From Granulicella sp. (lineage in GTDB: Bacteria > Acidobacteriota > Terriglobia > Terriglobales > Acidobacteriaceae), in the NCBI GenBank assembly GCA_003138795.1, contig PLHC01000066.1, positions 87,453-139,116 of the forward strand: DNA of 51,664 nucleotides, read 5' to 3'. The notes beneath the pieces are model-generated. The model saw only the letters and a list, made by a program, of their open reading frames with translations, made no database searches and was not told the origin of the DNA. A program made the position numbers and the translations under genes. Positions 1,144-20,005 of the stretch are shown piece after piece (position 1 is the stretch's first letter; each line of letters begins with the position of its first letter).

Positions 1144-1145
1144 GA

Positions 1146-3386: not shown

Positions 3387-6300
3387 TCATTCGGCGCCTC
3401 TTGTTCCCACAAGCAGGGCATCCCCCACCGGTTCCGGCGGGGTTATATGCCGAGATTCGAAGCGTCCCGCAATAGCGGCCCGGTCAAAGTACACCCGCCA
3501 CTCACGCTCAACATCGTTTTGGGCTTCGTCTAGAAGTTTTTTGGCGGCATCAGGATCGCTGCGCGCCAACATGGTGTAACGAGCCTCGTGATAGCGGTAT
3601 TCCTCAAGCGAAATGGACGGCGCTTTGGAGTCGAGTTGAAAGGGATTCTTGCCTTGATCCCGGAGCGCTGGATTGTATCGCATTAACGGCCAGTAGCCCG
3701 AAAGCACAGCATTTTTCTGCTGCTCCATGCCCTGGGCGAGATCATACCCATGGGCGATGCAGTGACTGTAGGCAATGATGAGCGCAGGACCGTTGTACGC
3801 CTCGGCCTCCTGAAATGCCTTGATGGTCTGCATGTCGCCGCCGCCCATGGCAACGCGTGCGACATACACCGAACCGTAGCTGACGGCCTCCATCGCAAGA
3901 TCTTTCTTGCTGGTAAGCTTGCCTCCTGCGGCGAACTTGGCGACCGCGCCCCGCGGCGTTGCCTTGGACATCTGACCACCGGTGTTGGAATAGGTCTCGG
4001 TATCGAGCACCAGGACCTTGACGTTTTTGCCGGAACCAAGCACATGGTCGAGTCCACCGAAACCAATGTCATAGGCCCAGCCATCACCACCCACGAGCCA
4101 GACGCTCTTGCGCACCAGGGAGTCGGCCACCGTTAGCAAAGTGCGGGCCTGCGTTGAGTCCACACCGGTCAATTTGCCCCGGACGAGCAGCACGCGCTCG
4201 CGTTGTGCATCGATCCCACCCTCGCTGGATTGGTCGGCGGATAGGATGGCAGTCACGAGATCGTCACCAACCCTTGGCGCAAGTTGCCGTAGCAGTTCCT
4301 CTGCGTACTCCTTCTGCTGGTCGAGCGCCAACCGCATGCCCAAACCGAACTCCGCATTGTCTTCAAAGAGAGAGTTCGACCACGTCGGTCCGCGTCCGCT
4401 CTTGTTCGCGGTGTAGGGAGTGGTAGGAAGGTTGCCACCATAGATCGAAGAGCAGCCTGTGGCATTCGCAATAAAGAGCCGATCGCCAAAGAGTTGCGTG
4501 AGCAGTTTGATGTAAGGTGTTTCGCCGCAGCCTGCGCAGGCGCCAGAGAACTCAAAGAGAGGATCGAGGAGTTGAATGTCCTTAACTTGGGTGTGAGACA
4601 GCCGTTTGCGGTCTACCGAAGGCAAGGACTCGAAGAAGCTCCAGTTCTTCGCTTCAGTCTCACGTAGAGGAGCCTGCATCTCCATATTGAGCGCCTTGTG
4701 GTTCGGTTCGCTCTTGCTCGTTACGGGGCAGATCTCCACGCAAATATGGCAGCCGGTGCAGTCCTCGGGTGCGACCTGTAGCGTGTAGAGCTCCTCCTCC
4801 ATGCCACGCCATCTGGGCTTGGCGCTCTTGAATGTCTCTGGCGCGCCGGACAGTAGCGCAGAATCATAGACCTTGGCGCGGATAACCGCATGGGGGCAAA
4901 CCAGCACGCACTTTCCGCACTGGATGCACAGATCCCTGTCCCAGACGGGAATTATCTGGGCGATATTGCGCTTCTCCCAATGCGCGGTTCCGGTGGGAAA
5001 CGTTCCTCCGGGCGGCAACGCGCTCACTGGCAGCAAATCCCCACGGCCTGCCGCCATCTCACCCAGAACATCGTGGACGAAGCTGGGCGCCTCCATGGGA
5101 AACATGGGAAGAATGTCAAAGGTGGCGCTGACCTGCTCCGGCAGCTTTACTGGATGCAGACGGGCAAGGGCCGCATCGACAGCTGCAAAGTTCTGCATCA
5201 CCACGTCGCCACGTTTGCCGTAAGTCTTTTTAATGGCCTTCTTGATCTGCTCAATCGCTTCGTCGCGCGGCAACACGCCGCTAATGGCGAAGAAGCAGGT
5301 CTGCATGATGGTGTTGATGCGGTTGCCCATCCCCGTTTCACGAGCTACGGAATCGCCATCGATGACGTAGAACTGGAGCTTCTTTGCGAGAATCGTCGCC
5401 TGCGTCGTTCGCGGCAGATGCGACCACACCTCGTCCGGTCCGTAGGGCGAGTTCAGTAGAAAGATAGCTCCCGGAGCGGCCGCAGTGAGAATATCCATGC
5501 GCTCCAGGAAGGAAAACTGATGGCAAGCCACAAAATTGGCCTTGCTGATGAGGTACGTCGAACGAATGGGCTCTGGGCCAAAGCGCAGATGGGATGTCGT
5601 GACCGAACCGGACTTCTTCGAGTCGTAGACGAAGTAGCCCTGGACATAGTTCGACGTCTCCGAACCGATGATTTTGATGGAGTTCTTGTTGGCCCCTACC
5701 GTCCCATCTGAGCCCAGGCCGTAGAACATGGCGCGCACAGTGCGCGGATCTTCCGTGGAAAAGTCAGGATCGTAATCCAGGCTGGTGTGGGTCACGTCGT
5801 CCTGAATCCCGATGGTGAAATGATTCTTCGGGCGCGACTTTTTCAACTCATCAAAGATCCCCTTGACCATGGCCGGAGTGAACTCTTTGGAAGAAAGTCC
5901 ATACCGTCCACCCACAACCCGCGGATGTTGTGCAAACCGCGGCGAGTCCCCGAAGAATGACTCACTCAACGCAGCGACGACATCCTGGTAGAGCGGCTCG
6001 CCGAGTGCGCCCGGCTCCTTGGTTCGGTCAAGTACCGCAATTGACTTTACGGTGTCCGGAAGTGCTGCAACAAAAGCATCGGCAGCAAAGGGTCGGTAAA
6101 GACGGACCTTGAGCAAGCCAAGCTTTTCCCCCTGCGCATTGAGGCTGCTAATCGCTTCTTCTGCCGCCCCCGCGCCCGATCCCATCAGAACAAGGACGCG
6201 CTCAGCATCAGCAGCGCCAACATAATCGAACAGATGATAGGCCCGTCCAGTCAGGCTCGCAAATCGGTCCATCGCCGTCTGAACAATCGCTGGGCAAGCC

Positions 6301-7013
6301 CGATAAAAGGGGTTGCAGGCCTCGCGTGCCTGAAAAAAGACGTCCGGATTCTGGGCCGTGCCACGCAGAATGGGGTAGTCGGAGCTGAGGGCACGCTCGC
6401 GATGGGCTAGAACAAACTTCTCCTCGAGCAGAGCTCGAATGGTCTCATCCGAGATCGCGATCGCCTTGTTGATCTCGTGCGACGTGCGGAAGCCGTCGAA
6501 AAAATGCATGAAGGGAATGCGCGCCTCAAGCGTGGCGATGTGGGCAATCAGGGCAAGGTCGCCAGCCTCCTGCACCGAGTTGGATGCGAGCATCGCATAC
6601 CCTGTCGACCTGCAGGCCATGACATCCGAGTGGTCGCCAAATATGGACAGCGCATGCGTGGCAATGGACCTTGCTGTGACATGAATGACGTTGGACGTTA
6701 GTTCCCCCGCTATCTTGAACAAATTGGGGATCATCAGCAGCAAGCCTTGCGATGCCGTAAACGTAGTACTGAAGGCACCAGCCTGAAGGGCTCCGTGCAT
6801 GGCGCCAGCCGCCCCGCCTTCACTCTCCATTTCGGCGATCAGCGGTACAGTACCCCAAATATTCTTCCGCCCCGTCTGCTGCCACTCGTCTGCCCACTCC
6901 GCCATCGTGGATGATGGGGTGATAGGGTAGATTGCGATGACTTGCGCAAGCCGGTAAGCCACCGAAGCCACTGCTTCATTACCGTCAAGGATCACCGTTT
7001 GTTGATCGTCCAT
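3387..7013 (-). CDS. nifJ: Pyruvate:ferredoxin (flavodoxin) oxidoreductase
   Basis: This single-chain homodimeric enzyme (1208 aa from the chosen start) converts pyruvate and CoA to acetyl-CoA and CO2 while reducing ferredoxin or flavodoxin. Domains in order: pyrimidine domain with DGNEAVASVAYRLAQ and IYPITPSS at the N terminus; gamma domain around residues 430-620 with FYGLGSDGTVGANKNSIKI; a two-cluster ferredoxin domain with CIQCGKCVLVCP and CTGCHICVEICP; and a C-terminal TPP domain with CAGCGETPYIK and GGDGWAYDIGFGG. A GTG start at 7079 is possible, but the ATG at 7013 has a good AGGTGA ribosome site and matches where family members begin. It is divergent from nuoA across about 107 bp. In several diazotrophs NifJ feeds electrons to nitrogenase; no sigma54 promoter is visible here. 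Confidence 0.95.
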   Translation of the reverse strand: MDDQQTVILDGNEAVASVAYRLAQVIAIYPITPSSTMAEWADEWQQTGRKNIWGTVPLIAEMESEGGAAGAMHGALQAGAFSTTFTASQGLLLMIPNLFKIAGELTSNVIHVTARSIATHALSIFGDHSDVMACRSTGYAMLASNSVQEAGDLALIAHIATLEARIPFMHFFDGFRTSHEINKAIAISDETIRALLEEKFVLAHRERALSSDYPILRGTAQNPDVFFQAREACNPFYRACPAIVQTAMDRFASLTGRAYHLFDYVGAADAERVLVLMGSGAGAAEEAISSLNAQGEKLGLLKVRLYRPFAADAFVAALPDTVKSIAVLDRTKEPGALGEPLYQDVVAALSESFFGDSPRFAQHPRVVGGRYGLSSKEFTPAMVKGIFDELKKSRPKNHFTIGIQDDVTHTSLDYDPDFSTEDPRTVRAMFYGLGSDGTVGANKNSIKIIGSETSNYVQGYFVYDSKKSGSVTTSHLRFGPEPIRSTYLISKANFVACHQFSFLERMDILTAAAPGAIFLLNSPYGPDEVWSHLPRTTQATILAKKLQFYVIDGDSVARETGMGNRINTIMQTCFFAISGVLPRDEAIEQIKKAIKKTYGKRGDVVMQNFAAVDAALARLHPVKLPEQVSATFDILPMFPMEAPSFVHDVLGEMAAGRGDLLPVSALPPGGTFPTGTAHWEKRNIAQIIPVWDRDLCIQCGKCVLVCPHAVIRAKVYDSALLSGAPETFKSAKPRWRGMEEELYTLQVAPEDCTGCHICVEICPVTSKSEPNHKALNMEMQAPLRETEAKNWSFFESLPSVDRKRLSHTQVKDIQLLDPLFEFSGACAGCGETPYIKLLTQLFGDRLFIANATGCSSIYGGNLPTTPYTANKSGRGPTWSNSLFEDNAEFGLGMRLALDQQKEYAEELLRQLAPRVGDDLVTAILSADQSSEGGIDAQRERVLLVRGKLTGVDSTQARTLLTVADSLVRKSVWLVGGDGWAYDIGFGGLDHVLGSGKNVKVLVLDTETYSNTGGQMSKATPRGAVAKFAAGGKLTSKKDLAMEAVSYGSVYVARVAMGGGDMQTIKAFQEAEAYNGPALIIAYSHCIAHGYDLAQGMEQQKNAVLSGYWPLMRYNPALRDQGKNPFQLDSKAPSISLEEYRYHEARYTMLARSDPDAAKKLLDEAQNDVEREWRVYFDRAAIAGRFESRHITPPEPVGDALLVGTRGAE

Positions 7014-7063
7014 ACAGTCACCTGTCAACTGTCTGCCATTTTCAGCCAGTGGGCGATCATCGG

Positions 7064-7081
7064 TTGTGACGTTCGTCACAA
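7064..7081. promoter_or_regulatory. Near-perfect palindrome in the nifJ/nuoA divergent promoter region
   Basis: The 18-bp sequence TTGTGACGTTCGTCACAA has 8-bp perfect arms around a TT centre. Its core matches the CRP-type consensus TGTGA-N6-TCACA and, equally, the NifA upstream site TGT-N10-ACA. It lies between the divergent nifJ and nuoA starts. The same 7-bp arms (TGTGACG and CGTCACA) recur at 11920-11935. No -24/-12 promoter lies at the right distance, so a CRP/FNR-family dimer is the likelier ligand (inference). Confidence 0.65.
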
Positions 7082-7120
7082 GTCATTTTTTTGCCATCTG
7101 GTAATGTTGTACACAGAACT

Positions 7121-7492
7121 ATGACAAACCATCTCTATCTGCCTGTTATCGTGCTGTTGATCGGAGGCGCCGGCTTCGCTATCGGGCCTATAGTGCTGGC
7201 GTGGATCTGGGCGAAGAAGTTCTCTCCGCAGAAATCCGGACCAAGCAAGAATGCCATCTATGAGTGCGGGCTGGAATCTACCGGGGACGCCTGGATTAAA
7301 TTCAAAACGGGCTATTACATCTATGCGATCATCTTTCTGGTCTTCGACGTGGAAGCAGTCTTTCTTCTGCCGTTTGCTGTAGCGTTTGGCGGTTTCACTG
7401 CAGCAGAATCCATCGACATGCTGGTTTTTCTACTCTTGCTGGTTGGAGGCCTTGTCTGGGCCTGCCAGAAGAACGTGTTGAGCTGGACCTAA
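7121..7492 (+). CDS. nuoA: NADH-quinone-oxidoreductase-type complex I subunit A
   Basis: The product (123 aa) is a small three-helix membrane subunit at the junction between the peripheral and membrane arms of complex I. It shows the family pattern: a first helix (VIVLLIGGAGFAI), then the cytoplasmic loop with YECGLESTGDAW, then helices with FLVFDVEAVFLLP. The ATG at 7121 was chosen over an upstream TTG at 7091 because family members begin just before helix 1. It is the first gene of a 12-gene operon with two NuoM-type subunits and no nuoEFG. Confidence 0.92.
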   Translation: MTNHLYLPVIVLLIGGAGFAIGPIVLAWIWAKKFSPQKSGPSKNAIYECGLESTGDAWIKFKTGYYIYAIIFLVFDVEAVFLLPFAVAFGGFTAAESIDMLVFLLLLVGGLVWACQKNVLSWT

Positions 7493-7568
7493 CCGTAGCG
7501 CGGATAAACTCTTTAGTGCACCGGCGCGATAAACCGATTGAGCGTTGACTTTAGAAGGCTTTGAGTAC

Positions 7569-8210
7569 ATGGATGAACAACTAAAGAGCGAGTTGGGACG
7601 GCAGGGAGTTGTTGCCACGTCTCTTCAGGAACTCTACAACTGGGGTCGCAAATGTTCTGTGTGGCCGCTGAACTTCGGCCTTGCCTGCTGCGCCATCGAG
7701 ATGATAGCCGCGACCATGGCGCGCTATGACCTCGCCCGCTTCGGCGCCGAGGTCTTCCGCCCCTCTCCCCGGCAGGCGGATCTAATGATTGTTGCCGGCA
7801 CGGTGACCAAAAAAATGGCGCCACAAGTCGTGCGGCTCTATAACCAGATGGCGGAGCCGAAATATGTGATCTCCATGGGCGCATGTGCCATCTCCGGTGG
7901 CCCATTCAAGCAGGGTTACAATGTGCTCAAAGGAATCGACCGTTACATCCCTGTGGATGTCTACATTCCTGGATGTCCGCCGCGGCCAGAGGCGCTGATC
8001 GACGCGTTTCTGCTGTTGCAGAAGATGATCGACGAACAGCGCCTGACCGGACCGAACAGGCCGCGTCATTTGAATGCCGATTTACCAAGTGAATTTATCG
8101 TGCCGGAGTTTGGAGCGCACGATCTCGTACCGCCGCAAAATCCCGAAGTATGGAAAGTTCCTCTCGTCAACATTTCAATTGCAGGCAAGAATGAATCTGG
8201 AAGAGATTAA
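7569..8210 (+). CDS. nuoB: Complex I subunit B (N2 cluster)
   Basis: The product (213 aa) carries the terminal 4Fe-4S cluster N2 that reduces quinone. Ligands are visible as the tandem cysteines in [11 protein letters not shown], the Cys in MGACAISGG and the Cys in [10 protein letters not shown]. The ATG at 7569 has an AGAAGG ribosome site about 10 nt upstream, so an upstream TTG at 7545 is less likely. The C-terminal tail of roughly 45 residues after the core ([15 protein letters not shown]) is longer than in many NuoB proteins. The gene overlaps nuoC by 20 nt, which points to translational coupling. Confidence 0.93.
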
Positions 8211-8823
8211 GTCCGAAATCGAGGCTAACGTTCCCGGCTGCTCGCTGGAGATCATTCCCAACGGTAGCCCATCTGGTCAGCATTCCCTGCTGGTCGACCC
8301 CGATCACGCGTTTGCGGTGGCTGGCTTCCTGCGGGACGCTGCAAATCTGCGGCTCGATTACTGCTCTAACGTCACTGGCGTCGATTGGCCGGCCAAAGAG
8401 GTCTCCACAAAGGTCAAGACGAAGAAGGTCGTCGATGGTGTGGAACAAGAGGTCGACGAGGTTCTAAAGACCCAGTCTGGCGGGTATTTGGAAGCGGTAT
8501 ACCACCTTTTCTCCGTCGAGCAACGGCAGGGACCAGTGGTTCTTAGGATGCGAACTGAAGACCGCGCTGACCGTGTTCATCTGCCTTCCCTAACCCCGGT
8601 CTGGCGGAGTGCGGATTATCAGGAGCGCGAAATATTTGACCTGTTTGGAATCATCTTCGACGGTCATCCGGATCTGCGTCGACTCCTCATGTGGGAGGGG
8701 TTTGAAGACCATCCGATGCGCAGAGATTACGTCGACCCTGACGATTACGAATATGAGCCAACGGCCCACGATGAAGTGCTGAAGCGGGCCAAGGAGCACC
8801 TTAGTGCGGAGGGAGGGCTATGA
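8191..8823 (+). CDS. nuoC: Complex I subunit C (30 kDa type)
   Basis: The product (210 aa) is the 30-kDa-type peripheral subunit that packs against NuoD at the quinone site. It has the family segment [18 protein letters not shown] and the C-terminal [17 protein letters not shown]. An acidic/lysine-rich insert ([16 protein letters not shown], about residues 75-92) interrupts the core. I chose the ATG at 8191, inside the end of nuoB, because a longer frame starting at 8074 would overlap nuoB extensively and adds no conserved sequence. The stop overlaps the nuoD start (ATGA). NuoC and NuoD are separate, not fused as in E. coli. Confidence 0.9.
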
Positions 8824-9980
8824 GCGTCTTGACAGAGGCCCCTGTAGATTTGACCCCAAGCCAATCCGATGATCGCACCGACAGCCAACTGCTGGAAGTT
8901 TCGATGGGGCCGCAGCATCCCTCCACGCACGGCGTCTTTCGCATGGATGTCGCCTTGGACGGTGAGCGGGTCGTCAAGCTGAAGCCGGTGTTCGGCTACC
9001 TGCATCGCAATCACGAAAAGATTGCCGAGACTGAAAGCTATCTCGGTTGTATGCCCTACACCGACCGGCTCGACTACATCTGCTCCATCACCAACAACTG
9101 GGCCTACGCTCTTGCCGTCGAAAAGCTGGCGGGCATACAGGTACCGGAACGCGCCGAGTACCTTCGGGTTATTACGGGCGAATTGACCCGGCTGCAGAAC
9201 CATGCCGGCCTGGTCGGATTCCTGATGCAGGACATGGGTGCAAGCGGAACCCCCCTGATGTACGCCTTCCGCGAGCGCGAGAAAATTCTGGACCTGTTTG
9301 AGGCGCTGACCGGGGCCCGCATGATGTGCAATTACATGCGCTTCGGCGGCTGCCGCGTGGACGCGCCCGCCGGCTGGCTGCAGCAGGCACAAAAAGTCAT
9401 AGACGCGTTCCCGCGGTTTCTCGACGAATTTGAACGGCTCCTCGTGAGCAATGAAATTCTCATGGCGCGCACCCAGGGAGTTGGGGTGGTCTCCAGGGAG
9501 CAGGCGGTGAATGCCGGCATCAGCGGGCCAATGGCAAGAGCTTCCGGGGTGAACTATGACCTTCGCAAAGTAGACAAGTATGGCATCTACGATCGCTTCT
9601 CTTTCAGGGTTCCCTTGGGTGAGAACGGCGACGTGTATGACCGGTACATGCTTCGTGTGCTGGAGATGCGGGAGTCGGTCGAGATTCTGAAGCAGGCTAT
9701 GCGCGACGTTCCTTCCGGTCCAATCATGGACCCGAACACGAAGACCCGCGGGTTCCGTCCAAAAGCAGGCGAAGCGTACGGGCGAATCGAAGGACCGAAG
9801 GGTGAGCTTGGCTTTTACCTGATCAGCGATGGATCTTCAAATCCCTATCGCTTTCGCGTGCGTCCTCCGAGCCTGATCAACCTGACACTCTTGGAAGACA
9901 TGTGCCTGGGCCAGAACGTAGCAGACATCGTTATCATTCTGGGCAGCGTAGATATTGTTTTGGGTGAGGTGGATCGTTGA
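8820..9980 (+). CDS. nuoD: Complex I subunit D (49 kDa type)
   Basis: The product (386 aa) forms the quinone-binding cavity with NuoB. It shows the family hallmarks [11 protein letters not shown] (with the quinone-site His), [19 protein letters not shown] and the C-terminal [13 protein letters not shown]. The length is typical. It is translationally coupled to nuoC. In canonical operons nuoE, nuoF and nuoG would follow, but here nuoI comes next after a short gap, so the NADH-oxidising module is missing from this operon. Confidence 0.95.
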
Positions 9981-10067
9981 GTTCGAGTACTAGGTATAAA
10001 GTTATCGGCTTGGGCGATCGCCTTTCGGCGGCTACGCCGTCATGTTGTGACATCGGGGGGGCGACCT
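9981..10067 (+). promoter_or_regulatory. nuoD-nuoI spacer with small hairpin
   Basis: This 87-bp spacer sits where nuoEFG would be in a canonical operon. It contains the palindrome GGCGATCGCC (10013-10022) and a hairpin CGGCG-GCTA-CGCCG (10026-10039), followed by a G-run acting as ribosome site for nuoI. There is no T-tract, so this is not an obvious terminator. No remnant of nuoE, F or G is recognisable. Confidence 0.4.
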
Positions 10068-10685
10068 GTGATAGGTGAAGGTATTCTGAAGGGTCTGGCC
10101 GAGACTGCGCGCAATTTCTTTGGCAGCTACGTCAACAAGGATCGACTGACAACTGTTCAATTTCCAGAGGAACGCCTTCCACAAATTGAGGCGACACGTG
10201 ACTTTCCGTTCCTGGTCTATGACGGCACGGACTGGCAACAGGGCCTGCGGTGTGTCTCTTGTCAAATCTGCGAGAAGGAGTGCCCGCCCAAATGCATCTA
10301 CATCGAAAAGAGCAAGGACAAGAAGCCGGATGCAACGGGGAAACCACAGTCTTATCCAACGACCTTCAATATCGATATCTCCGTCTGTATGAGTTGCCAG
10401 ATCTGCGTCGAGGTCTGCCCGTTTGATGCCATTAAGATGGACGTAGCATTCGAGCTAAGCACGGATGACCGTTTTGGCGGTCTGCTGTTGAATAGGGAGC
10501 AGTTAGCCAAATCCAACGAATATTACAACAAAATTCATCCCACCGAAGCGGCGGCCGTGGATGCGGCATTCGCTGAGGAACGTGCCAAAGCAGAGGCGAA
10601 GGCACGGCAAGCTGCGGAGGCCAAAGCTGCCGCAGCCGCGCAAACTCTCACCCCCGGTGCCGGAGAAACGACGAGGGTACAGTGA
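10068..10685 (+). CDS. nuoI: Complex I subunit I (two 4Fe-4S clusters)
   Basis: The product (205 aa) is the 8Fe ferredoxin-like subunit that wires electrons to NuoB. Two cluster motifs are plain: CVSCQICEKECP and CMSCQICVEVCP. The GTG at 10068 (reading V-I-G-E-G-I-L-K-G-L) was chosen over a GTG at 10047 because it sits behind a G-rich ribosome site and at the family start. The C-terminal 40 residues are an Ala/Lys/Glu-rich tail that is unusual and probably disordered. Since nuoEFG are absent, NuoI is the outermost Fe-S subunit encoded here and a plausible docking site for ferredoxin (inference). Confidence 0.92.
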   Translation: MIGEGILKGLAETARNFFGSYVNKDRLTTVQFPEERLPQIEATRDFPFLVYDGTDWQQGLRCVSCQICEKECPPKCIYIEKSKDKKPDATGKPQSYPTTFNIDISVCMSCQICVEVCPFDAIKMDVAFELSTDDRFGGLLLNREQLAKSNEYYNKIHPTEAAAVDAAFAEERAKAEAKARQAAEAKAAAAAQTLTPGAGETTRVQ

Positions 10686-10740
10686 CGATCTCGGTGGCCG
10701 ATAACAAATTACGGATTCTTGTGGCGGACGGTACGGACTT

Positions 10741-11916
10741 ATGCCTGAAATAATCGATCAGATCTTTGTGTTGTCGAAGCACTGGCTCCTGGGCTATGTG
10801 CCCGCTGGACTCCAGCCGGTGTTCTCTGCCCTGCTTTCCGTCGTGCCTGTCCTGATCGCCTTCCCACTGTTATTCGCGATCACCACAGTGCTCGAACGTA
10901 AAGGCCTGGGAAGAATGCAGAACCGCTACGGTCCTAACCGTACAGGCCCATTTGGCATTCTGCAGCCCATGGCTGATGGGATCAAATCGCTGACTAAGGA
11001 AGATATCATTCCGCGCACCGCGGACCATCTGGTTCATCTTCTGGCGCCGCTGCTGCTCGTAACTGCTTCCTTTCTCGTCTATGCGGTCCTGCCTATCGGC
11101 AGAAATATGGTAATCGCCAATCTGAATGCCGGCGTGCTGTTTTTCTTCGCGGTCGGCTCCATGGTGGAGCTTGCCGTCTTCATGGCCGGCTGGTCCAGCC
11201 GGAGTAAGTATTCCCTGCTCGGTGCGATGCGCGCCATTGCACAAATGATCAGCTATGAAATGCCCTTGGTTCTGGCATCAGTAGTCGTCATCATGGCAGC
11301 CGGATCGTTATCAACCGTGGCCATTGTGAATATGCAGGCGAGTTACACAGGAATCTGGCCACACTGGTACGTATTCACTCCGTGGGGGCTGACCGGATTT
11401 GTTATCTTCCTGATTGCCGCGACCGCGGAATCCAATCGTTGCCCGTTCGATCTGCCGGAAGGAGAATCGGAGATCATTGCCGGCTACTACATTGAATACT
11501 CGGGCTTCAAGTTTGCCCTATTCTTCCTGGGTGAATACCTTGGCATGTTTGCCACCAGCGCAATGGCGATTACGCTCTTCCTCGGTGGCTGGGCCGCTCC
11601 CTTTTCGTTCCTGACATGGATTCCGTCCTACGTTTGGTTCTTCACAAAATTACTTACCTTGATCCTAGTATTCATCTGGATTCGCGGCACTCTTCCTCGC
11701 CTTCGAATGGATCAACTGATGAACTTTGCATGGAAATTCATGTTACCCCTGTCACTAATAAATATCTTTGGCGCCGGGGTTTGGCACTATATGCCCGCGG
11801 GACTTTTGCGGTGGTTGGTCGTTACCTTGCTAGTAGTTGTTTCCTGCATCTCGTTGAGCCGTGGACTAAGACGCGGCAAGTGGTTCCACGTACGCACATA
11901 TCGCTTTGCTGCTTAG
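10741..11916 (+). CDS. nuoH: Complex I subunit H
   Basis: The product (391 aa) is the membrane subunit that forms the quinone chamber and links it to the proton pumps. Conserved loops are present: ERKGLGRMQNRYGPNRTGP after helix 1, SYEMPLVLA, and AESNRCPFDLPEGESEI. Length is slightly above the usual 320-350 because of an extended N-terminal segment and tail. It follows nuoI by 55 bp and precedes nuoJ by 83 bp; the latter gap contains a palindrome. Confidence 0.94.
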   Translation: MPEIIDQIFVLSKHWLLGYVPAGLQPVFSALLSVVPVLIAFPLLFAITTVLERKGLGRMQNRYGPNRTGPFGILQPMADGIKSLTKEDIIPRTADHLVHLLAPLLLVTASFLVYAVLPIGRNMVIANLNAGVLFFFAVGSMVELAVFMAGWSSRSKYSLLGAMRAIAQMISYEMPLVLASVVVIMAAGSLSTVAIVNMQASYTGIWPHWYVFTPWGLTGFVIFLIAATAESNRCPFDLPEGESEIIAGYYIEYSGFKFALFFLGEYLGMFATSAMAITLFLGGWAAPFSFLTWIPSYVWFFTKLLTLILVFIWIRGTLPRLRMDQLMNFAWKFMLPLSLINIFGAGVWHYMPAGLLRWLVVTLLVVVSCISLSRGLRRGKWFHVRTYRFAA

Positions 11917-11919
11917 ACC

Positions 11920-11935
11920 TGTGACGGACGTCACA
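11920..11935. promoter_or_regulatory. Second copy of the TGTGACG-N2-CGTCACA palindrome (nuoH-nuoJ gap)
   Basis: The sequence TGTGACGGACGTCACA begins 4 nt after the nuoH stop. Its 7-bp arms are identical to those of the site at 7065-7080; only the two central bases differ. Two such matches in non-coding gaps of one operon are unlikely by chance and suggest one dimeric regulator. It fits the CRP-type TGTGA-N6-TCACA pattern and, formally, the NifA TGT-N10-ACA pattern. Confidence 0.6.
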
Positions 11936-11999
11936 AGGTTGTCGCGCTCAGTGTGTTCATCTGTATCTAATTACTTTGCATGGTCGGAATAGTTCCAAG

Positions 12000-12500
12000 A
12001 TGACAATTTCTTTTTTGCTACTCGCTGCAATTACGATCGCCGGAACCGCTGCCGCGATGAGCCTGAGGAATCTGGTGCACTGCGTCCTCGCGCTGACCCT
12101 TGGCTTAGTCGGATTAGCCGCACTGTATCTGCAGCTCGGTGCTCAATTCGTGGGATTCACGCAGATTCTTGTATATGTAGGTGCGGTAGCCATCCTTGCG
12201 GTGTTCGCCATCATGATGACCCGGAGTGCTGAGCCGACTGAGCCGCACGGCTCCTCTTCTTTCCAGTTATCAGGCGCTCTTATTGCCGGTATCGTGTTTG
12301 CGGTTCTGGCATGGGCCGTTTCCTCTGGAACAAAGGCGCTGCAAGTACAGACCCTGCAACCTGAGGCGTCTGTCAATCAGATCGGTGTTGCGCTGATGCA
12401 CGGATTTGTTCTGCCGCTCGAAGTGATCGGCCTGCTGCTAACCGCTGCACTCATTGGAGCAGGCGTACTCGCGATGGATGAAACTCGGGGGGCACGATGA
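12000..12500 (+). CDS. nuoJ: Complex I subunit J
   Basis: The product (166 aa) is the five-helix membrane subunit J. It shows LVHCVLALTLGLVGLAALYLQLGAQFVGFTQILVYVGAVAILAVFAIMM split over helices 2 and 3, with the pi-bulge helix pattern GFTQILVYVGAVAIL of the family. The ATG at 12000 is preferred to a TTG at 11976 because the first hydrophobic helix starts directly after it; its ribosome site is weak. Its last bases overlap the nuoK start (ATGA). Confidence 0.9.
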   Translation: MTISFLLLAAITIAGTAAAMSLRNLVHCVLALTLGLVGLAALYLQLGAQFVGFTQILVYVGAVAILAVFAIMMTRSAEPTEPHGSSSFQLSGALIAGIVFAVLAWAVSSGTKALQVQTLQPEASVNQIGVALMHGFVLPLEVIGLLLTAALIGAGVLAMDETRGAR

Positions 12501-12808
12501 GTCCGATGTCAGGCTATCTACTCTTGTCAGCCCTTCTCTTTTCCATCGGATTGGCCGGTGCGTTGACCCGACGCAATGCAATTCTCGTACTTATCGGAAT
12601 TGAACTGATGCTCAACGCTGCCAACCTGAACTTCATTGCCTTTTGGCGCTATGGTCCCAACCCCGAAGCATTGACCGGCGTAATGTTCGCCATTTTTTCC
12701 ATCAGCGTTGCCGCCGCAGAGGCTGCGGTCGGCTTGAGTATTATCCTTGCCGTCTACCGTCATTCTAAAACAACAAATTTGGACAAGATGAACTCGATGA
12801 AAGGCTAA
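12497..12808 (+). CDS. nuoK: Complex I subunit K
   Basis: The product (103 aa) is the three-helix subunit K. The family signature is clear: RRNAILVLIGIELMLNAANL with the helix-2 glutamate, then AAAEAAVGLSIILAVYR with the helix-3 glutamate; both take part in proton movement in known complex I. It is coupled to nuoJ by a 4-nt overlap and followed by a 111-bp gap before nuoL that contains a perfect palindrome. Confidence 0.94.
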   Translation: MSPMSGYLLLSALLFSIGLAGALTRRNAILVLIGIELMLNAANLNFIAFWRYGPNPEALTGVMFAIFSISVAAAEAAVGLSIILAVYRHSKTTNLDKMNSMKG

Positions 12809-12862
12809 GCAGCGCATGAAGAATGTACTATTTAGCAAAATCACATATTCCAGATACGCCTC

Positions 12863-12876: not shown

Positions 12877-12919
12877 AACAGAGTCCTATCATTTACCTGA
12901 AACTATTTCCCGGCATTCA

Positions 12920-15031
12920 ATGAACTGGATCGTACAAAATCTCTGGCTGGTCCCCGCGTTGCCAATCTTGGCTGCGGGAATCAGTGCCCTCGCGAAGCGG
13001 AAGAGCCGCGTCCTCGCCGCGTCACTGGCCATCGGCTCTATGGCCATCTCCTTTCTACTGTCCCTATGGGCTTTTGCTCACGTGCTTTGGCTTCGAAATC
13101 ATGGTGAAGCTAGCCTGCAGATCTTCGATTTCCGCTGGTTTCAATTTGGCAATCAATGGTTATCGCTCGGCTGGGTATTGAATCCCCTGACCGCCGTGAT
13201 GCTGGTGATGGTTACATTCGTAGGCCTGCTGATCTTTATCTACAGCGTCGGGTATATGGCGCACGACGAGAACTTCACGCGCTTCTTTTGCTTCTTGGCG
13301 CTGTTCGCCGGTGCTATGCTCGGTGTTGTTATTGCAAACAGCCTGCTTCTGCTCTTCATGTGCTGGGAGATCGTAGGCCTCACTTCCTATCTGCTGATTG
13401 GATTCTGGTACAGCAATCCGAAAGCCGCAGCTGCTGGGAAAAAAGCCTTCATTGTGACCCGCATCGGAGATATTCCATTCTTCCTTGGAATGGTCTGGCT
13501 GTATGGGCAATCAGGCACCCTGCTCTTTTACAACGGAGGTGCGGGCTGCCTTGAACCTTCCGCAATCAACTATCTTGTGGCCCAGACCACCACAATAGGG
13601 ATCTGCGCTGCGACAGGCATTGCACTGCTGATCTTCTGTGGCGCAGTCGGCAAGTCGGGCCAATTTCCCCTGCACGTCTGGCTCCCCGACGCGATGGAGG
13701 GCCCGACACCCGTGAGTGCACTGATCCACGCCGCAACGATGGTGGCGGCCGGAGTATTTCTCGTCGCTCGAGTCTATCCGCTCATGAGCGCGCACGCAGG
13801 AATCGCTAGCGTCTTGACAACTTCCACTGCGCTGCAGGCAGTGACTTGGGTGGGCTCAATCACGGCCCTCTTTGGTGCCCTGATCGCCGTCGCACAGTAC
13901 GACATCAAACGAATTCTCGCTTACTCCACCGTCTCACAGCTGGGCTACATGATGATGGGCCTCGGAGTTGGTGGCGTCTCCGTCGGAATGTTCCATCTCA
14001 TCACCCACGCCTTCTTCAAGTCGCTATTGTTCCTCGGCGCAGGCTCCGTCATTCACGGCTGCTCAGGTGAGCAGGACATTCGACGCATGGGTGGCCTCGG
14101 AAGGCTCATGCCTGTCACTTTCGCTACGTATGCCGTGGGCATGCTGGCACTGTGCGGATTCCCATTGCTCTTCTCCGGGTTTTGGAGTAAGGACGAAATT
14201 CTTCACGCAGCGCACACGTGGAACATCTCGCAGGCGCCGTTTTATATGGGCGCATTCGCAGCCTTACTGACCGCGTTCTATATGTCCCGCCAGGTTTTTT
14301 ACGTCTTTGGCGGAAAGTCGCGCTTGGCTGAAGAAACCGCTGATCTATCTCATTCCCTTGCTTCTCCGGACACGACAAACCACCATGGCTCAAGCGCTCC
14401 GCATGAGAGTCCCGCAGTGATGACAATACCGCTCATGATTCTTTCGGTGTTTGCCCTCTTGCTAGGATTCCTTGGGACTCCAGCGTGGCCTTGGTTCCAA
14501 TCTTTCCTGGAAGATACACAGGCACCCCTAGACTTCTCAGCATTCTCCACTGGTGGCATGCTCCCGGTCATGCTGTCATCATCAGTCATCGTTCTACTTG
14601 GCCTTACCATCGGATGGTGGTTCTACGGCCGCAAACCAATCGAAAGTGTTGACGCTCCTGATAACGTCGGCAGGCTTTCACCTTCCATCTTCTCTGCACT
14701 GGGCAATGCGCTCTATTTCGACGCAATATACGGCGCGACGTTCGTAAAGCTGAATACTCAACTGTCAAAGATCTCCGATTGGCTCGACCGTTGGGTCTGG
14801 AATGGCGCGGTTCAGACGGTGACTCAAATCGTGTTTGGATTCGCATACCTAGACAACTTCCTTGACACACACGTTGTCAATTCTGGCTTTGATGGGGGCT
14901 GCCAGGGCGTATCGCGTAGCGGCCAGATATTGTCCTTGCTTCAGGCCGGCCGAATACAGAGATATCTGAAGATCGTTGCCGGCGCACTCATCGTGTTCAC
15001 GATACTACTGCTCTGGAAGGCCAAGATATGA
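12920..15031 (+). CDS. nuoL: Complex I subunit L with extended lateral helix
   Basis: The product (703 aa) is the distal antiporter-like proton pump. Key residues are present: Glu150 in FMCWEIVGLTSYLLIGFW and Lys245 in AVGKSGQFPLHVWLP. It is longer than E. coli NuoL (613). Part of the extra length is a His/Ser-rich loop near residues 475-500. Near the C terminus, in the region of the lateral amphipathic helix, DRWVWNG at 623-629 is echoed by DTHVVNSG at 649-656, exactly 26 residues later, which looks like an internal duplication lengthening the helix. Such an insertion is the known companion of a fourth pump subunit. The stop overlaps nuoM (ATGA). Confidence 0.93.
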   Translation: MNWIVQNLWLVPALPILAAGISALAKRKSRVLAASLAIGSMAISFLLSLWAFAHVLWLRNHGEASLQIFDFRWFQFGNQWLSLGWVLNPLTAVMLVMVTFVGLLIFIYSVGYMAHDENFTRFFCFLALFAGAMLGVVIANSLLLLFMCWEIVGLTSYLLIGFWYSNPKAAAAGKKAFIVTRIGDIPFFLGMVWLYGQSGTLLFYNGGAGCLEPSAINYLVAQTTTIGICAATGIALLIFCGAVGKSGQFPLHVWLPDAMEGPTPVSALIHAATMVAAGVFLVARVYPLMSAHAGIASVLTTSTALQAVTWVGSITALFGALIAVAQYDIKRILAYSTVSQLGYMMMGLGVGGVSVGMFHLITHAFFKSLLFLGAGSVIHGCSGEQDIRRMGGLGRLMPVTFATYAVGMLALCGFPLLFSGFWSKDEILHAAHTWNISQAPFYMGAFAALLTAFYMSRQVFYVFGGKSRLAEETADLSHSLASPDTTNHHGSSAPHESPAVMTIPLMILSVFALLLGFLGTPAWPWFQSFLEDTQAPLDFSAFSTGGMLPVMLSSSVIVLLGLTIGWWFYGRKPIESVDAPDNVGRLSPSIFSALGNALYFDAIYGATFVKLNTQLSKISDWLDRWVWNGAVQTVTQIVFGFAYLDNFLDTHVVNSGFDGGCQGVSRSGQILSLLQAGRIQRYLKIVAGALIVFTILLLWKAKI

Positions 15032-16587
15032 TCACTTTTCCGTGGATCACAACCTTGACCATGGTGCCAGTTGTCGGTGCAATTGTTTTGCTTGCGCTTG
15101 GTGGTCGCAACAAAGTTCTTGTGCGCTGGATCGCGCTAGCGTTTAGCCTCGTAGCGCTCATCCTGACCCTGGTTCTCTGGCACAAGTTCAATACTGTAGC
15201 CGACGGCTTTCAATTTCAGGAACTCCACACCTGGATTCCATCGCTCAATGCTGAATATCGAGTCGGAATCGATGGCCTCGGGCTTCTGATGTTGTTACTC
15301 ACCTCTATCGTTGTACCGATTGGTATGCTCGCATCATGGCAGATTCAGCAGCGGGTACCCCTCTATTTCTCACTCGTCCTCCTGCTACAGTCTTGCCTCT
15401 TTGGCACTTTTACGGCCTTGAACTTTTTCCACTGGTTCATCTTTTGGGAACTTAGCCTGATCCCAGCATTCTTCCTTATCAAGTTATGGGGTGGATCGAA
15501 GAGCGCCAAGGCTGCAATGCAGTTCCTGATATACACAATGGTCGGAAGCATCGCTATGCTGATGTCATTTCTGGCTATATATTTGGCAACGAAAACATTT
15601 GATTTCACTGAACTGGCGCACTTGGCACAGAGCGGACAACTGATGCCAGCCGTGGTTGGCAAACTCGGCTGGCACCTATTCACGCCGGAACACACTGCTA
15701 TGGTGATATTTCTGGGTGCTTTCCTTGGTTTCGCCGTCAAAGTACCGCTGATTCCCTTTCACACTTGGCTACCTTCGGCCTACTCTGAAGCGCCAACTGG
15801 CACAACGATCCTTTTGACTGGCGCAATGTCAAAGATGGGGCTTTACGGTTTCCTCCGCATTCTTCTTCCCCTGTTCGGCGTTCAGATGCAACAGGTTCTG
15901 ACGCCGCTTCTTTGGCTCGCGGTAGCAACCGTTATCTTGTCGGCATATGCAGCGCTTGCCCAAACTGATCTCAAGCGCATCTTTGCCTATTCCTCGATCA
16001 ATCATCTTGGCTACTGCATGCTTGGAATCTTCGCGGTCGTCAAATTCACCGGTGGGGACACAGCGCTTACCGCCCAGAAGTTTGCCGCGATGAACGGCGT
16101 CTTTCTCCAGATGTTCAACCACGGACTGACCGCCGCAACCATGTTCTGGTTCGTCGCAATGCTGGAAAAGCGGACCGGCGGTCTACGCGGGCTCAACGAC
16201 TTTGGTGGCTTGCGCAAAGTTGTGCCCGTCTTCACCGGCCTTATGGGGATCGTTCTCTTTTCTTCGCTGGGCCTGCCGGGGTTGAACGGGTTTATCGGTG
16301 AGTTCCTGATCTTCAAGGGCGCGTTACCTCTCGTCACGTGGGCCACTGCCCTGTCGGCAATTGGACTACTCATTACGGCAATCTTTATTCTCGGAATTCT
16401 GCAGCGTGTCTTTTATGGTCCGCTCGGAGAGAAGTGGGTTCACCTTCCCGATCTAACGATAGGCGAGCGTCTGACGCTCGTACCTGCAATTGGACTTATG
16501 TTTGCTCTGGGCCTATATCCCCAACTTATTCTCGGCGTCGTCAACCATACCGCCATACAGATGGCGCTAAATCTGCGGAATTTTTGA
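15028..16587 (+). CDS. nuoM: Complex I subunit M, first copy
   Basis: The product (519 aa) is an antiporter-like proton pump of the membrane arm. It keeps the canonical pumping residues: Glu141 in FWELSLIPAFFLI and Lys238 in GFAVKVPLIPFHTWLP. A 10-residue or so insertion (TGGDTALTAQKFAAMNG, about residues 340-357) is seen before the helix-11 region, as in other NuoM proteins of this class. It starts within the nuoL stop codon and is followed after 2 nt by the second NuoM-type gene. Confidence 0.93.
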   Translation: MITFPWITTLTMVPVVGAIVLLALGGRNKVLVRWIALAFSLVALILTLVLWHKFNTVADGFQFQELHTWIPSLNAEYRVGIDGLGLLMLLLTSIVVPIGMLASWQIQQRVPLYFSLVLLLQSCLFGTFTALNFFHWFIFWELSLIPAFFLIKLWGGSKSAKAAMQFLIYTMVGSIAMLMSFLAIYLATKTFDFTELAHLAQSGQLMPAVVGKLGWHLFTPEHTAMVIFLGAFLGFAVKVPLIPFHTWLPSAYSEAPTGTTILLTGAMSKMGLYGFLRILLPLFGVQMQQVLTPLLWLAVATVILSAYAALAQTDLKRIFAYSSINHLGYCMLGIFAVVKFTGGDTALTAQKFAAMNGVFLQMFNHGLTAATMFWFVAMLEKRTGGLRGLNDFGGLRKVVPVFTGLMGIVLFSSLGLPGLNGFIGEFLIFKGALPLVTWATALSAIGLLITAIFILGILQRVFYGPLGEKWVHLPDLTIGERLTLVPAIGLMFALGLYPQLILGVVNHTAIQMALNLRNF

Positions 16588-16589
16588 TT

Positions 16590-18098
16590 ATGCTTGCATG
16601 GACGATCTACATATCCTTTCTTGGGGCTCTGGCACTCTTCTTCTTGCCAAGTCGTAGGGCGGCTTGGGCACGCATCGTTGCGCTTCTGACAACTCTCGTC
16701 ACCTTTGCCATCACGCTGACCGCCTTTATCCAGCACCGGACTGGTGAGATGCTGACAGTTGTCAACGTGCCCTGGATCCCATCACTAGGCATCTCGTTCA
16801 ACCTCAAGGCAGATGGCATCAGTCTGACCCTGCTCTTGCTCACTGGAATCATCGGAGTTTGCGGGGTTCTTTTTTCCTGGAACATCGAGCAGCGGATAAA
16901 AGAATTCTTTGGATTCTATCTAGTGCTGATCGGCGCAGTGTACGGTGTATTTCTCAGCTATGATCTCTTTCTGCTCTTTGTCTTTTACGAAATCGTAGTG
17001 ATACCAAAATATTTCCTGATCGCCATATGGGGATCGACCCGCCGGGAATACGCCGCAATGAAGCTCGTGCTCTACTCGTTCATCGGTAGCGCAATGGTGC
17101 TTGTTGGCCTGCTCGCGGCCTACGTCCTTGCCGGCTCAAAGAGTATGGCTCTCGGATATCTTGCCGGGTATGCCTATCCACTTCACTTTCAGATGTGGGC
17201 CTTCCCACTTGTCTTCGTTGGCTTTGGAATCCTGGCGGGCCTGTGGCCTTTCCATACATGGGCTCCGACGGGTCACGTAGCTGCACCTACCGCTGCTTCC
17301 ATGCTGCTGGCTGGCGTCGTCATGAAGTTGGGAGCCTATGGATGTCTTCGCGTCGCGATGACGCTCTTCCCTCTTGGCATGAGTCCATGGGGCTTTCACG
17401 TCGTCGGCCTTGGTTCCTGGCGTGATGTCTTTGCGGTGCTCGCCGTCATCGGGATACTCTACGGTGCCCTGGTTGCACTGGTGCAGAAAGATTTCAAATT
17501 TGTCATTGGCTATTCGAGTATCAGCCACATGGGGTTCATCCTCCTGGGCTTGATGACCTTGAATCAAATTGGAATTTCTGGCGCAGTAGTTCAAATGGTG
17601 TCGCATGGCATTCTCGCCGGATTGCTTTTCGCTGTGGTCGGCCGCATGGTGTACTCCCGCACACACACTCGTGACCTGCCGGCGCTGGGACCGATGCATC
17701 TCAACAAGGTCATCCCATTTGCGGCTGTGACGTTTGTCATTGCTGGAATGGCAAGCATGGGTCTGCCAGGGTTCAGTGGATTCGTCGCGGAGTTGATGAT
17801 CGTGGTCGGTGTCTGGCGTTCCTATCCGTCGCTTATTGTCTTTGTAGGAATAGGGCTTGTGGCCGGTGTCGCCTATATATGGCGTGCCATGCAACAGGCA
17901 TTCTTTGCGGGAGCGGATACTGAGTCTACCGAACCACTTCCACCGCTTCCACCTATTTCATTTCCAGAACGCATTGGTGCGGCGATCCTAATCTGCGCGA
18001 GTGTGGTCGTCGGAACCTTCCCTCAACTATTTCTGAATGTGATTCATCCAGCGTTAGAATCTCCCCTCTTTCAGGGCTTACGTAAGGGGGGATGGTAA
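16590..18098 (+). CDS. nuoM2: Complex I subunit M, second copy (extra pump)
   Basis: The product (502 aa) is a second NuoM-family pump in the same operon, giving four antiporter-like subunits (L, M, M2, N). Glu134 (VFYEIVVIPKYFLIAIWG) and Lys246 (AGVVMKLGAYG) are conserved. The helix-7 lysine of NuoM is replaced: where the first copy has GFAVKVPL, this one has GFGILAGL, with Leu215 in the Lys position. The ATG at 16590 begins 2 nt after the nuoM stop; an upstream in-frame extension inside nuoM is spurious. The two copies are clearly diverged, so this is an old paralogue rather than a recent duplication. Confidence 0.93.
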   Translation: MLAWTIYISFLGALALFFLPSRRAAWARIVALLTTLVTFAITLTAFIQHRTGEMLTVVNVPWIPSLGISFNLKADGISLTLLLLTGIIGVCGVLFSWNIEQRIKEFFGFYLVLIGAVYGVFLSYDLFLLFVFYEIVVIPKYFLIAIWGSTRREYAAMKLVLYSFIGSAMVLVGLLAAYVLAGSKSMALGYLAGYAYPLHFQMWAFPLVFVGFGILAGLWPFHTWAPTGHVAAPTAASMLLAGVVMKLGAYGCLRVAMTLFPLGMSPWGFHVVGLGSWRDVFAVLAVIGILYGALVALVQKDFKFVIGYSSISHMGFILLGLMTLNQIGISGAVVQMVSHGILAGLLFAVVGRMVYSRTHTRDLPALGPMHLNKVIPFAAVTFVIAGMASMGLPGFSGFVAELMIVVGVWRSYPSLIVFVGIGLVAGVAYIWRAMQQAFFAGADTESTEPLPPLPPISFPERIGAAILICASVVVGTFPQLFLNVIHPALESPLFQGLRKGGW

Positions 18099-19594
18099 TG
18101 AACGTGACCAACTACGGACAATTGTTAGGGCTTGCTTGGCCGGAAATCATTGTTACCGTCACGGCGCTCCTCGTCGTGGCTGCCGATCTGACATTCTTCC
18201 GCAAATCCAGGATTCGCATCCGCTTTGCGGCCGCAGCGGCAATCGGATCCATTGGCTGCGCAGTTGCCATTCTCAAGCTGCTGCTCGCGTCGACTCAGGC
18301 CACCGTTCTAGATGGCGTACTCGTCGCGAATCCACTCACGCATCTGGTTCAAATTGCGCTGCTGACTCTGACCATCGTCACGCTGCTTCTCTCAGTGGAT
18401 TCGACCTTCACCGAGCATGTCAGCGAGTTTGTCCTGCTTCTCCTGTTAGCGACCGTCGGCATGATGTTCCTCGTTGGCTCGCAGGATCTGCTGGTCATCT
18501 TCATCTCCCTGGAACTTTTGAGCCTGTCGCTCTACATCCTTGCGGGCTTTGACAAGCGCAGTCCTCGATCGTCAGAGGCCGCCCTGAAATATTTTCTCTT
18601 CGGCGGAATGTCGGCAGCTTTCATGCTGTTTGGATTCAGCTTGCTTTACGGCTTCTCAAATTCCACCAGTCTTACGCACATAGCCAGCGCAATTCATGGC
18701 CAGCCGCTTAGCCCACTTCTGATCATCGCCATTGTGATGACTGTAATTGGCTTTGGCTTCAAGGTGGCAGCAGCACCCTTCCACTTCTGGGCCCCGGACG
18801 TATACCAGGGCGCACCACTTCCCAGTGCCGCATTCATCGCATCAGGATCAAAGGTCGCCAGCTTCTTCATCTTCTTTCAGGTGCTCGTGCTGGGCTTTGC
18901 AGGGGCGGAAGGCAGTGCCACCCTATTCCATTTTCAGAGCGGCTGGGTACCTGTTCTCGTCGTGGTCGCTGTCGTCTCCATGCTGCTGGGCAATCTTGTC
19001 GCCATCGTTCAGAGCAGCCTGAGACGGCTGCTCGCATACTCGGCGGTAGCCCATGCAGGGTATATGCTCCTTGCCTACGTCACGCATACGCAGCAGAGCC
19101 TTGCCGCCCTTCTGTATTACGTGGCGACATATTCCCTGGCGACTCTCGGAGTTCTTGGCGTTCTAGCCGTAACAGAGAAGCAACTTGGTAACGACAAGAT
19201 ATCTGATCTCGCCGGCCTTAGCAGACGAGCTCCCTTTATCTCCTTTTGCCTCGCCATCTTCCTTCTCTCTCTCGCGGGCATCCCGCCCCTCTCTGGGTTC
19301 TTCGCAAAATTCCTTCTGTTCACCGCTGTCCTTGCTGCGAGCCCTGGTTCAAAGCTCTTGCTATGGCTCGTGATCGTCGCCATAGCCATGAGTGCCGTAT
19401 CACTCTTCTACTACCTCCGGGTGCTCAAGAGCGTTTACGTCGCGGATCCAGCTGCCGAGATTAGCGAGATTCGATCACCTATTCTCGTGCAAGTCGTTGT
19501 TGGGCTACTTGCCGGCGGCGTAGTACTCCTCGGTTGCGCGCCCGACCTGCTATTAGCCCAGATTCTGAAAGTTATCCACGCCTCTGGTCTCTGA
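18098..19594 (+). CDS. nuoN: Complex I subunit N
   Basis: The product (498 aa) is the proximal antiporter-like pump of complex I. It shows ISLELLSLSLYILAGF with the conserved glutamate, the helix-7 segment GFGFKVAAAPFHFWAPDVYQGAP with its lysine, and the KRSPRSSEAALKYFLFG loop. I chose the ATG at 18098, which overlaps the nuoM2 stop (TAATG) and has AAGGGGGG about 6 nt upstream, over an ATG at 18092 that lies too close to that ribosome site. It is the last nuo gene; IS66 debris begins 6 bp after its stop and no clear terminator survives. Confidence 0.94.
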   Translation: MNVTNYGQLLGLAWPEIIVTVTALLVVAADLTFFRKSRIRIRFAAAAAIGSIGCAVAILKLLLASTQATVLDGVLVANPLTHLVQIALLTLTIVTLLLSVDSTFTEHVSEFVLLLLLATVGMMFLVGSQDLLVIFISLELLSLSLYILAGFDKRSPRSSEAALKYFLFGGMSAAFMLFGFSLLYGFSNSTSLTHIASAIHGQPLSPLLIIAIVMTVIGFGFKVAAAPFHFWAPDVYQGAPLPSAAFIASGSKVASFFIFFQVLVLGFAGAEGSATLFHFQSGWVPVLVVVAVVSMLLGNLVAIVQSSLRRLLAYSAVAHAGYMLLAYVTHTQQSLAALLYYVATYSLATLGVLGVLAVTEKQLGNDKISDLAGLSRRAPFISFCLAIFLLSLAGIPPLSGFFAKFLLFTAVLAASPGSKLLLWLVIVAIAMSAVSLFYYLRVLKSVYVADPAAEISEIRSPILVQVVVGLLAGGVVLLGCAPDLLLAQILKVIHASGL

Positions 19595-19927: not shown

Positions 19928-20005
19928 GTCTCCAGGTGTGATTGATCCAGTGTTCACGCGGCTTTTATGCATAACTTAGCCCCGTATCCATGGCATACTA
20001 CGGGC

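Follow-up and report, generated by a model that had tools for sequence, protein, structure and literature searches.

The stretch of DNA analysed here (the window, 51,664 nucleotides in full, from a genome whose closest named relatives are Granulicella, Acidobacteriaceae) carries on its forward strand a complex I operon, nuoA-B-C-D-I-H-J-K-L-M1-M2-N, that spans positions 7091-19594 and in which two nuoM genes follow one another. The order nuoA, B, C, D, I, H, J, K is the same in related loci. After nuoN lie two short frames on the + strand (19607-20542), which we take to resemble IS66-family transposition genes, the second being a fragment. The genes of the locus are the following.

97..2999, - strand: 2-oxoacid:acceptor oxidoreductase, alpha at 1146-2999 (above its profile cut-off) and beta at 97-1143 (best match TIGR02177, below cut-off)
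3387..7079, - strand: pyruvate:ferredoxin (flavodoxin) oxidoreductase, divergent from nuoA (TIGR02176, 1782 bits, cut-off 911)
7091..12808, + strand: nuoA, B, C, D, I, H, J, K (open reading frames; profile matches for A, C, D and I; starts of A, B and C provisional)
12920..15031, + strand: nuoL, 703 aa, lateral helix lengthened (profile match, alignment)
14828..14905, + strand: NuoL lateral-helix insertion, residues 637-662 (approximate; alignment)
15028..16587, + strand: nuoM1, with the ordinary helix-7 Lys, K238 (profile match)
16590..18098, + strand: nuoM2, Lys-less NuoM, 502 aa (TIGR01972 profile match, structure superposition)
18092..19594, + strand: nuoN (profile match)

NuoM2 starts at the ATG at 16590, the listed open reading frame from 16338 being a longer open frame. 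It scores 416.9 bits against the NuoM profile TIGR01972 (curated cut-off 263.8), and its predicted model superposes on solved NuoM, NdhD and ND4 chains with Z values of 47.1-49.2 over 465-484 residues among the top 14 matches. The mean pLDDT of this AlphaFold model is 85.9, with blocks at 43 and 54 within residues 221-240. No nuoE, nuoF or nuoG was seen among the open reading frames of the operon, and the NuoF family occurs in the window's genome only on contigs C27 and C162, the former of which also carries a second NuoL/NuoM set.

Complex I with two NuoM subunits (2M complex I) reportedly has its founding description in Chadwick et al. 2018; the accessible text of papers citing that study makes no mention of a missing helix-7 Lys. 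Two features of 2M complexes are present here, namely a pair of nuoM genes within one nuo operon, arranged L M1 M2 N in the window and in related loci, and additional residues in the lateral helix of NuoL, with a median of 27 (range 21-27) across 75 NuoL of 2M operons, compared with medians of 3 in 18 sequences of the 'ver' group, 1 in 10 of the 'bac' group and 3 in 41 from Lys-type complexes (range -6 to 37). Because the NuoL lateral helix is lengthened by a median of 27 residues, the sequences support well the view that the window encodes a complex with four antiporter-like subunits. A separate observation concerns locus L201 (genome G154), where NuoL has a 2M-like insertion though the stretch shows one NuoM, of the Lys type.

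Papers cited by PMC number here and below are quoted from their accessible parts. In current descriptions of the antiporter-like subunits, a Glu on helix 5 and a Lys on helix 7 act together as a switch governing how high the barrier to proton transfer is (PMC10212512; PMC11496545), and the Lys residues of helices 7 and 12 have been termed absolutely conserved and essential (PMC7419157). Mutations in Paracoccus are reported to agree with this: K232Q, which removes the helix-7 Lys of NuoM, severely diminishes activity in membranes and leaves none in the purified enzyme, L242A, at the gate Leu, likewise yields an inactive purified enzyme, and H246F, at the His of the cytoplasmic proton entry, stops catalysis (PMC9802314). 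The corresponding positions of NuoM2, and others that line the same path, are listed below; fractions refer to 104 NuoM2 rows (the window, 89 orthologs and 14 from a further search, comprising 96 distinct sequences), and the controls are 146 sequences, 62 of ordinary NuoM and 84 of NuoM1.

16989..16991, + strand: Glu134, helix-5 Glu of the ion pair, kept (104/104)
17007..17009, + strand: Lys140, helix 5, Glu134 + 6, new (104/104)
17076..17078, + strand: Ser163, helix 6, column 178, one turn from Ser167 (invariant, 104/104)
17088..17090, + strand: Ser167, helix 6, column 182, kept (Ser in 102/104)
17220..17249, + strand: helix-7 motif GFGILAGLWP, residues 211-220
17232..17234, + strand: Leu215 (CTG), in the place of the helix-7 Lys (E. 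coli NuoM K234; Leu 104/104, Lys 146/146 controls)
17262..17264, + strand: Ala225, in the place of the helix-7 gate Leu (E. coli 244, Paracoccus L242; Ala 104/104)
17274..17276, + strand: His229, helix-7 His of the cytoplasmic proton entry (column 248, Paracoccus H246), kept (104/104)
17325..17327, + strand: Lys246, helix-8 Lys, kept (104/104)
17499..17501, + strand: Phe304, in the place of Arg/Lys, adjoining the conserved Lys303
17526..17528, + strand: His313, kept (invariant in 104 rows)
17604..17606, + strand: His339, kept (invariant in 104 rows)
17790..17792, + strand: Glu401, helix-12 Glu typical of NuoM, kept (104/104)

Where NuoM1 reads GFAVKVPLIP (residues 234-243, the Lys being K238), NuoM2 reads GFGILAGLWP, and the place of the Lys is taken by Leu215. 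This column is Leu in all 104 rows of the NuoM2 clade and Lys in all controls (62/62 ordinary NuoM and 84/84 NuoM1); in the window, NuoL, NuoM1 and NuoN all retain the Lys. An earlier note on this DNA, made from the letters alone, had proposed exactly this replacement, which the comparison bears out, as it does the retention of Glu134 and Lys246; its remark that pumping depends on this Lys in known antiporter-like subunits agrees with the Paracoccus K232Q result, and of the coordinates that it gave for the motif, 17220-17251, the start is right and the end lies two bases too far. From G211 to W224 the alignment runs without a gap, so that the register is certain, and the occurrence that the note had named as contrary to its claim, a different Lys filling this position of helix 7, was looked for in the alignment, where helix 7 shows none; the new Lys is on helix 5. 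Misalignment and sequencing error are excluded by the ungapped motif and by the agreement of 96 distinct sequences, both of which contradict an artefact as the explanation of the missing Lys and leave it a negligible probability.

Some points of sampling define these counts. Full NuoM1 sequences were obtained from 72 of 90 loci. Left out or set apart were locus L009, which is the window's own genome, NuoM1 copies cut by contig ends, and an MrpD-like frame (L142) that had been sorted as NuoM; the second NuoM of the window's genome, on contig C27, was counted apart and has the helix-7 Lys, being otherwise poorly aligned. Loci beyond the genus were chosen by similarity to NuoM2 and not randomly, so their shares per phylum are no estimates, and taxon labels are those of the database records (for example Rhodanobacteraceae for L048, "bacterium" for L091 and Proteobacteria for L093).

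Several positions around the lost Lys have changed as well. The gate Leu (column 244) is present in 62/62 ordinary NuoM and 83/84 NuoM1 (145/146) and is Ala in NuoM2, the Pro two residues past the helix-7 Lys has become Gly, and the Trp preceding the helix-5 Glu has become Tyr, the last two each in 104/104 rows. Column 313 is Phe in NuoM2, Arg or Lys in ordinary NuoM (Ser in 7/62) and Arg/Lys in 84/84 NuoM1. The new Lys140 occupies column 150, which is Met in 62/62 ordinary NuoM, Ala or Val in 84/84 NuoM1 and Lys in 0/146 controls; since it is Met in every ordinary NuoM, we regard the site as constrained. Between Glu134 and Lys140 there is a step of six residues, which in an ideal helix would turn the two to different faces, and judging from helix rise and NuoM topology we take Lys140 to be about 9 Å nearer the cytoplasm. 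On helix 6, column 178 is Ser in NuoM2, Thr in Lys-type NuoM and Leu in the single Lys-less NuoM described below, and column 182 aligns with NuoL D178. The mouse ND4 and ND5 structures are reported to place a helix-6 residue between the Glu and the Lys, which is matched to column 182 via NuoL D178/ND5 D179 (PMC10396290); column 178, also considered for this residue in ND4, was rejected for the same alignment of column 182.

The features typical of an antiporter-like subunit are otherwise complete, with the helix-5 Glu, the helix-8 Lys and the helix-12 Glu/Lys each found in 104/104 rows, as against 0/104 for the helix-7 Lys. Column 259 on helix 8 is Leu in 104/104, so that the helix-8 His of the single-NuoM members is absent. 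As to the controls themselves, the helix-5 Glu is Asp in 12/62 ordinary NuoM. NuoM1 is odd among Lys-type NuoM: in 84/84 sequences it has Tyr in the entry-His column, with Lys and gate Leu retained, while column 150 is Ala or Val and column 264 is Ser.

In a tree of 70 of the 142 rows with NuoL and NuoN as outgroup, the Lys-less NuoM all fall into a single clade (SH-aLRT 94), to which NuoM2 belongs by common descent as well as by its helix-7 Leu, beside a group of Lys-type NuoM and NuoM1 (87). In an unrooted tree of 61 rows the split keeps a support of 99 after removal of 11 trait columns, and the changes needed on that tree are one for helix 7, one for Lys140 and three for the helix-8 His. 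A recent duplication of nuoM within the operon is excluded, NuoM1 and NuoM2 falling in different NuoM clades. In the NuoL tree the 2M complexes stand beside the 'ver' complexes (SH-aLRT 92), with the Lys-type complexes next to this pair (97) and the Bacteroidota and acidobacterial Lys-less groups outside; because the latter lie outside, the histories of NuoL and NuoM are not fully concordant. The NuoN tree does not separate the order of the groups. As the NuoL tree pairs 2M with the verrucomicrobial single-NuoM complexes, we tentatively read NuoM2 as the original subunit of the operon and the Lys-type NuoM1 as the later arrival, a hint that comes from one branch of one tree.

A Lys-less NuoM is also found as the sole NuoM of its operon, with Leu in the helix-7 column in 28/28 cases (6 Acidobacteriota, 19 Verrucomicrobiota and 3 Bacteroidota, the last recorded as Prevotella nigrescens, Phocaeicola massiliensis and Bacteroides finegoldii). 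All five of these proteins that were scanned exceed the TIGR01972 cut-off (two 'ver', one acidobacterial, one from genome G353 and one from Bacteroides). Each of the 28 has a new His on helix 8 (27 at E. coli column 259 and one, L139, at 263), which occurs in 0/146 Lys-type rows; column 178 is Leu, and the gate Leu has become Ser or Ala. The 'ver' group, 18 of the 28, further has a His preceding the helix-5 Glu and, at column 264, an additional helix-8 Lys that adjoins the usual one (both 18/18), with Tyr in the entry-His column (18/18) and Ala (13) or Ser (5) at column 182; in mouse ND4 the place of column 264 is L236, corresponding to the helix-8 Lys of ND2 (PMC10396290). In all the acidobacterial members (L100-L105) the loop leading into helix 6 is extended by roughly 19 inserted residues.

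A search of the 'ver' genomes with a Lys-type query returned no second NuoM at E<=1e-60 in 17/18, the exception being G440. A nuoF lies within 12 kb of the Lys-less NuoM in 13/19 genomes (the 18 'ver' and G353), and nuoE, F and G are all visible in 8/10 upstream stretches; judged by gene content, the verrucomicrobial single-NuoM operons look like ordinary NADH-oxidising complexes. In the six acidobacterial genomes a Lys-type NuoM is present elsewhere too (L168, L185-L189), and the Lys-less complex is one of two. For Bacteroides fragilis, deletion of nuo is reported to leave both NADH:quinone activity and mouse colonisation unchanged, which its authors attribute to the absence of nuoEFG and to low expression (PMC7002350). 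From the sequences, a working and pumping Lys-less complex I appears likely. Our literature search, which most subscription papers fell outside, returned no report of a Lys-less NuoM, no study in which the pumping of a Lys-less complex I was measured and no publication on Rhodothermus complex I; among viral contigs no relative was found, one search giving no match and another, of 22 stretches, giving 0 relatives.

Starting from what is directly established (the residues and their fixation, the clade, the operon and the NuoL insertion), we hold, with somewhat more confidence than doubt, that NuoM2 is a genuine antiporter-like subunit of 2M complex I, from an old clade and probably proton-translocating, in which the cation partnering the helix-5 Glu has been replaced by a titratable residue elsewhere. 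According to this proposal, the helix-7 switch Lys would have become Leu once, in an old NuoM clade, and the gate Leu would have been lost with it, leaving intact the entry His229 and a chain from Glu134 through Lys246 and His313/His339 to Glu401. The function of the helix-7 cation would have passed to a titratable residue in the N-terminal half, Lys140 in NuoM2 and the helix-8 His in the single-NuoM members, and the relocated cation would keep the switch working in an altered form, so that NuoM2 would still take part in proton translocation, by pumping or by relaying. The proposal is favoured by the invariance of Leu215, Lys140, Ser163, the other axis residues and the entry His229 in 104/104 rows, the last having a counterpart in Paracoccus on which catalysis depends. 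Also in its favour are the 28 loci with a Lys-less NuoM as sole NuoM, all with the extra helix-8 His, the ordinary look of the verrucomicrobial operons among them, the constraint on column 150 and the new helix-6 His beside Lys->Asn in the green complex I type described below. Several observations count against it: K232Q and L242A each stop catalysis in Paracoccus and NuoM2 lacks both residues, the B. fragilis deletion was without effect on NADH:quinone activity or colonisation, the single 'ver' NuoM in addition lack the entry His, each of the changes is a clade-level event, numbering one to three, six of the 28 loci, all acidobacterial, are in genomes with a Lys-type NuoM elsewhere, and Lys140 lies on a different ideal-helix face from Glu134.

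The earlier note had suggested that the extra subunit pumps by a modified path or acts as a spacer, and of these the modified path is the better supported, while the implied tie between the loss of the Lys and the extra subunit as such does not hold, a Lys-less NuoM being the sole NuoM in 28 other operons. A spacer would lengthen the arm and transmit an electrostatic signal and would itself move no proton; simulations of Thermus NuoM, in which the ion pair modulates the lateral barrier (PMC11496545), speak for it, as does the absence of two residues without which Paracoccus NuoM does not support catalysis, the switch Lys and the gate Leu, yet it leaves the invariance of the entry His and of the remaining pump residues (104/104) unaccounted for and makes little sense where the Lys-less NuoM is the only one, and we judge it improbable. 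The lengthening of the NuoL lateral helix is no help to it, as this speaks for an added module, pumping or silent alike. A module with a rebuilt switch is more likely than a spacer, both on account of the 28 operons in which a sole Lys-less NuoM has a new His and on account of the operons of green complex I type, in which a new His occurs as well.

One could also imagine that NuoM2 has no Glu-Lys switch and passes protons along the central axis in the direction of NuoL, as its chain from helix 8 to helix 12 is intact and models in which all protons leave at NuoL have been published (PMC10212512; PMC10396290). The 'domino' form of that model, however, assigns a Lys7/Glu5 switch to every subunit (PMC10212512), and a lateral relay leaves the invariant new Lys140 without explanation; we consider it unlikely, if slightly less so than the spacer. 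Antiporter-like subunits are kin to the Mrp Na+/H+ antiporters, and this kinship lends some plausibility to an adaptation of the Lys-less NuoM to another cation (Na+) or to a lower driving force, with the Lys dispensable, but NuoL, NuoM1 and NuoN of the same complex retain the Lys, and we hold such an adaptation to be very improbable.

If the switch has indeed been rebuilt, one could take a more general view, which we put forward tentatively and with more doubt than conviction: the helix-7 Lys may be dispensable in nature, whole lineages lacking both it and the gate Leu, and the switch may need a titratable cation near the helix-5 Glu whose place is not fixed (a Lys on helix 5, a His on helix 6 or a His on helix 8). 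Both four-antiporter complexes examined keep exactly three Glu-Lys pairs and rebuild the fourth, which might reflect an electrostatic limit on the number of identical modules per arm. A Lys-less NuoM contradicts a stated universal of antiporter-like subunits. How quinone chemistry is coupled to pumping some 200 angstroms away is an old dispute, and the helix-5 Glu/helix-7 Lys pair is the switch in the leading models; the Lys-less clade, with new titratable residues specific to its branches, offers ready evolutionary experiments that tell a need for this particular residue from a need for a charge somewhere in its surroundings. The question also bears on the energetics of soil and gut bacteria. 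As for the source of electrons in the window, the divergent oxidoreductase genes adjoining a nuo operon without E, F and G suggest that ferredoxin may be the donor.

Compared with known systems, the window resembles 2M complex I in its second NuoM adjoining the first and in its lengthened NuoL lateral helix. It differs from the 'clade 3' 2M complex of Nitrospira, which is described as having no nuoH, nuoE or nuoF and an enlarged nuoG (PMC6606698), in possessing nuoH; of nuoE, nuoF and nuoG none was seen in the operon of the window. With the canonical NuoM/ND4 of E. coli, Paracoccus, Thermus and mitochondria, NuoM2 shares the fold, the helix-5 Glu, the helix-7 entry His, the helix-8 Lys, the two His and the helix-12 Glu; it differs in lacking the helix-7 Lys, the Pro two residues on and the gate Leu, in the new Lys140 and in the change of Arg/Lys at column 313 to Phe. 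The single Lys-less NuoM belong to the same clade and have in common with it the helix-7 Leu, the loss of Pro and gate Leu and an uncharged column 313, but they combine a helix-8 His with Leu at column 178 where NuoM2 has Lys140 and Ser163. A further comparison is offered by green complex I, the name given to a complex I of rhizobia with two MrpD-like subunits (PMC9040806). The operons of this type that we examined, on a plasmid of Ensifer canadensis and at six Verrucomicrobiota loci (L123, L140-L145), encode an MrpD-like subunit of about 600 aa in which the helix-7 Lys is Asn and helix-6 column 178 is His (7/7); the other MrpD-like subunit, NuoM and NuoN retain the Lys. In the smaller MrpD-like subunit, of which six copies are complete, column 182 is Lys in all six. 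Green complex I resembles the complex of the window in having four antiporter-like subunits, one of which lacks the helix-7 Lys and has gained a titratable residue on a helix nearby. In green complex I, however, it is an MrpD-like subunit that has changed, from Lys to Asn, a His on helix 6 is the residue gained, and the Lys of NuoM is retained. Two four-antiporter complexes of different build therefore each contain one Lys-less module together with a new titratable residue.
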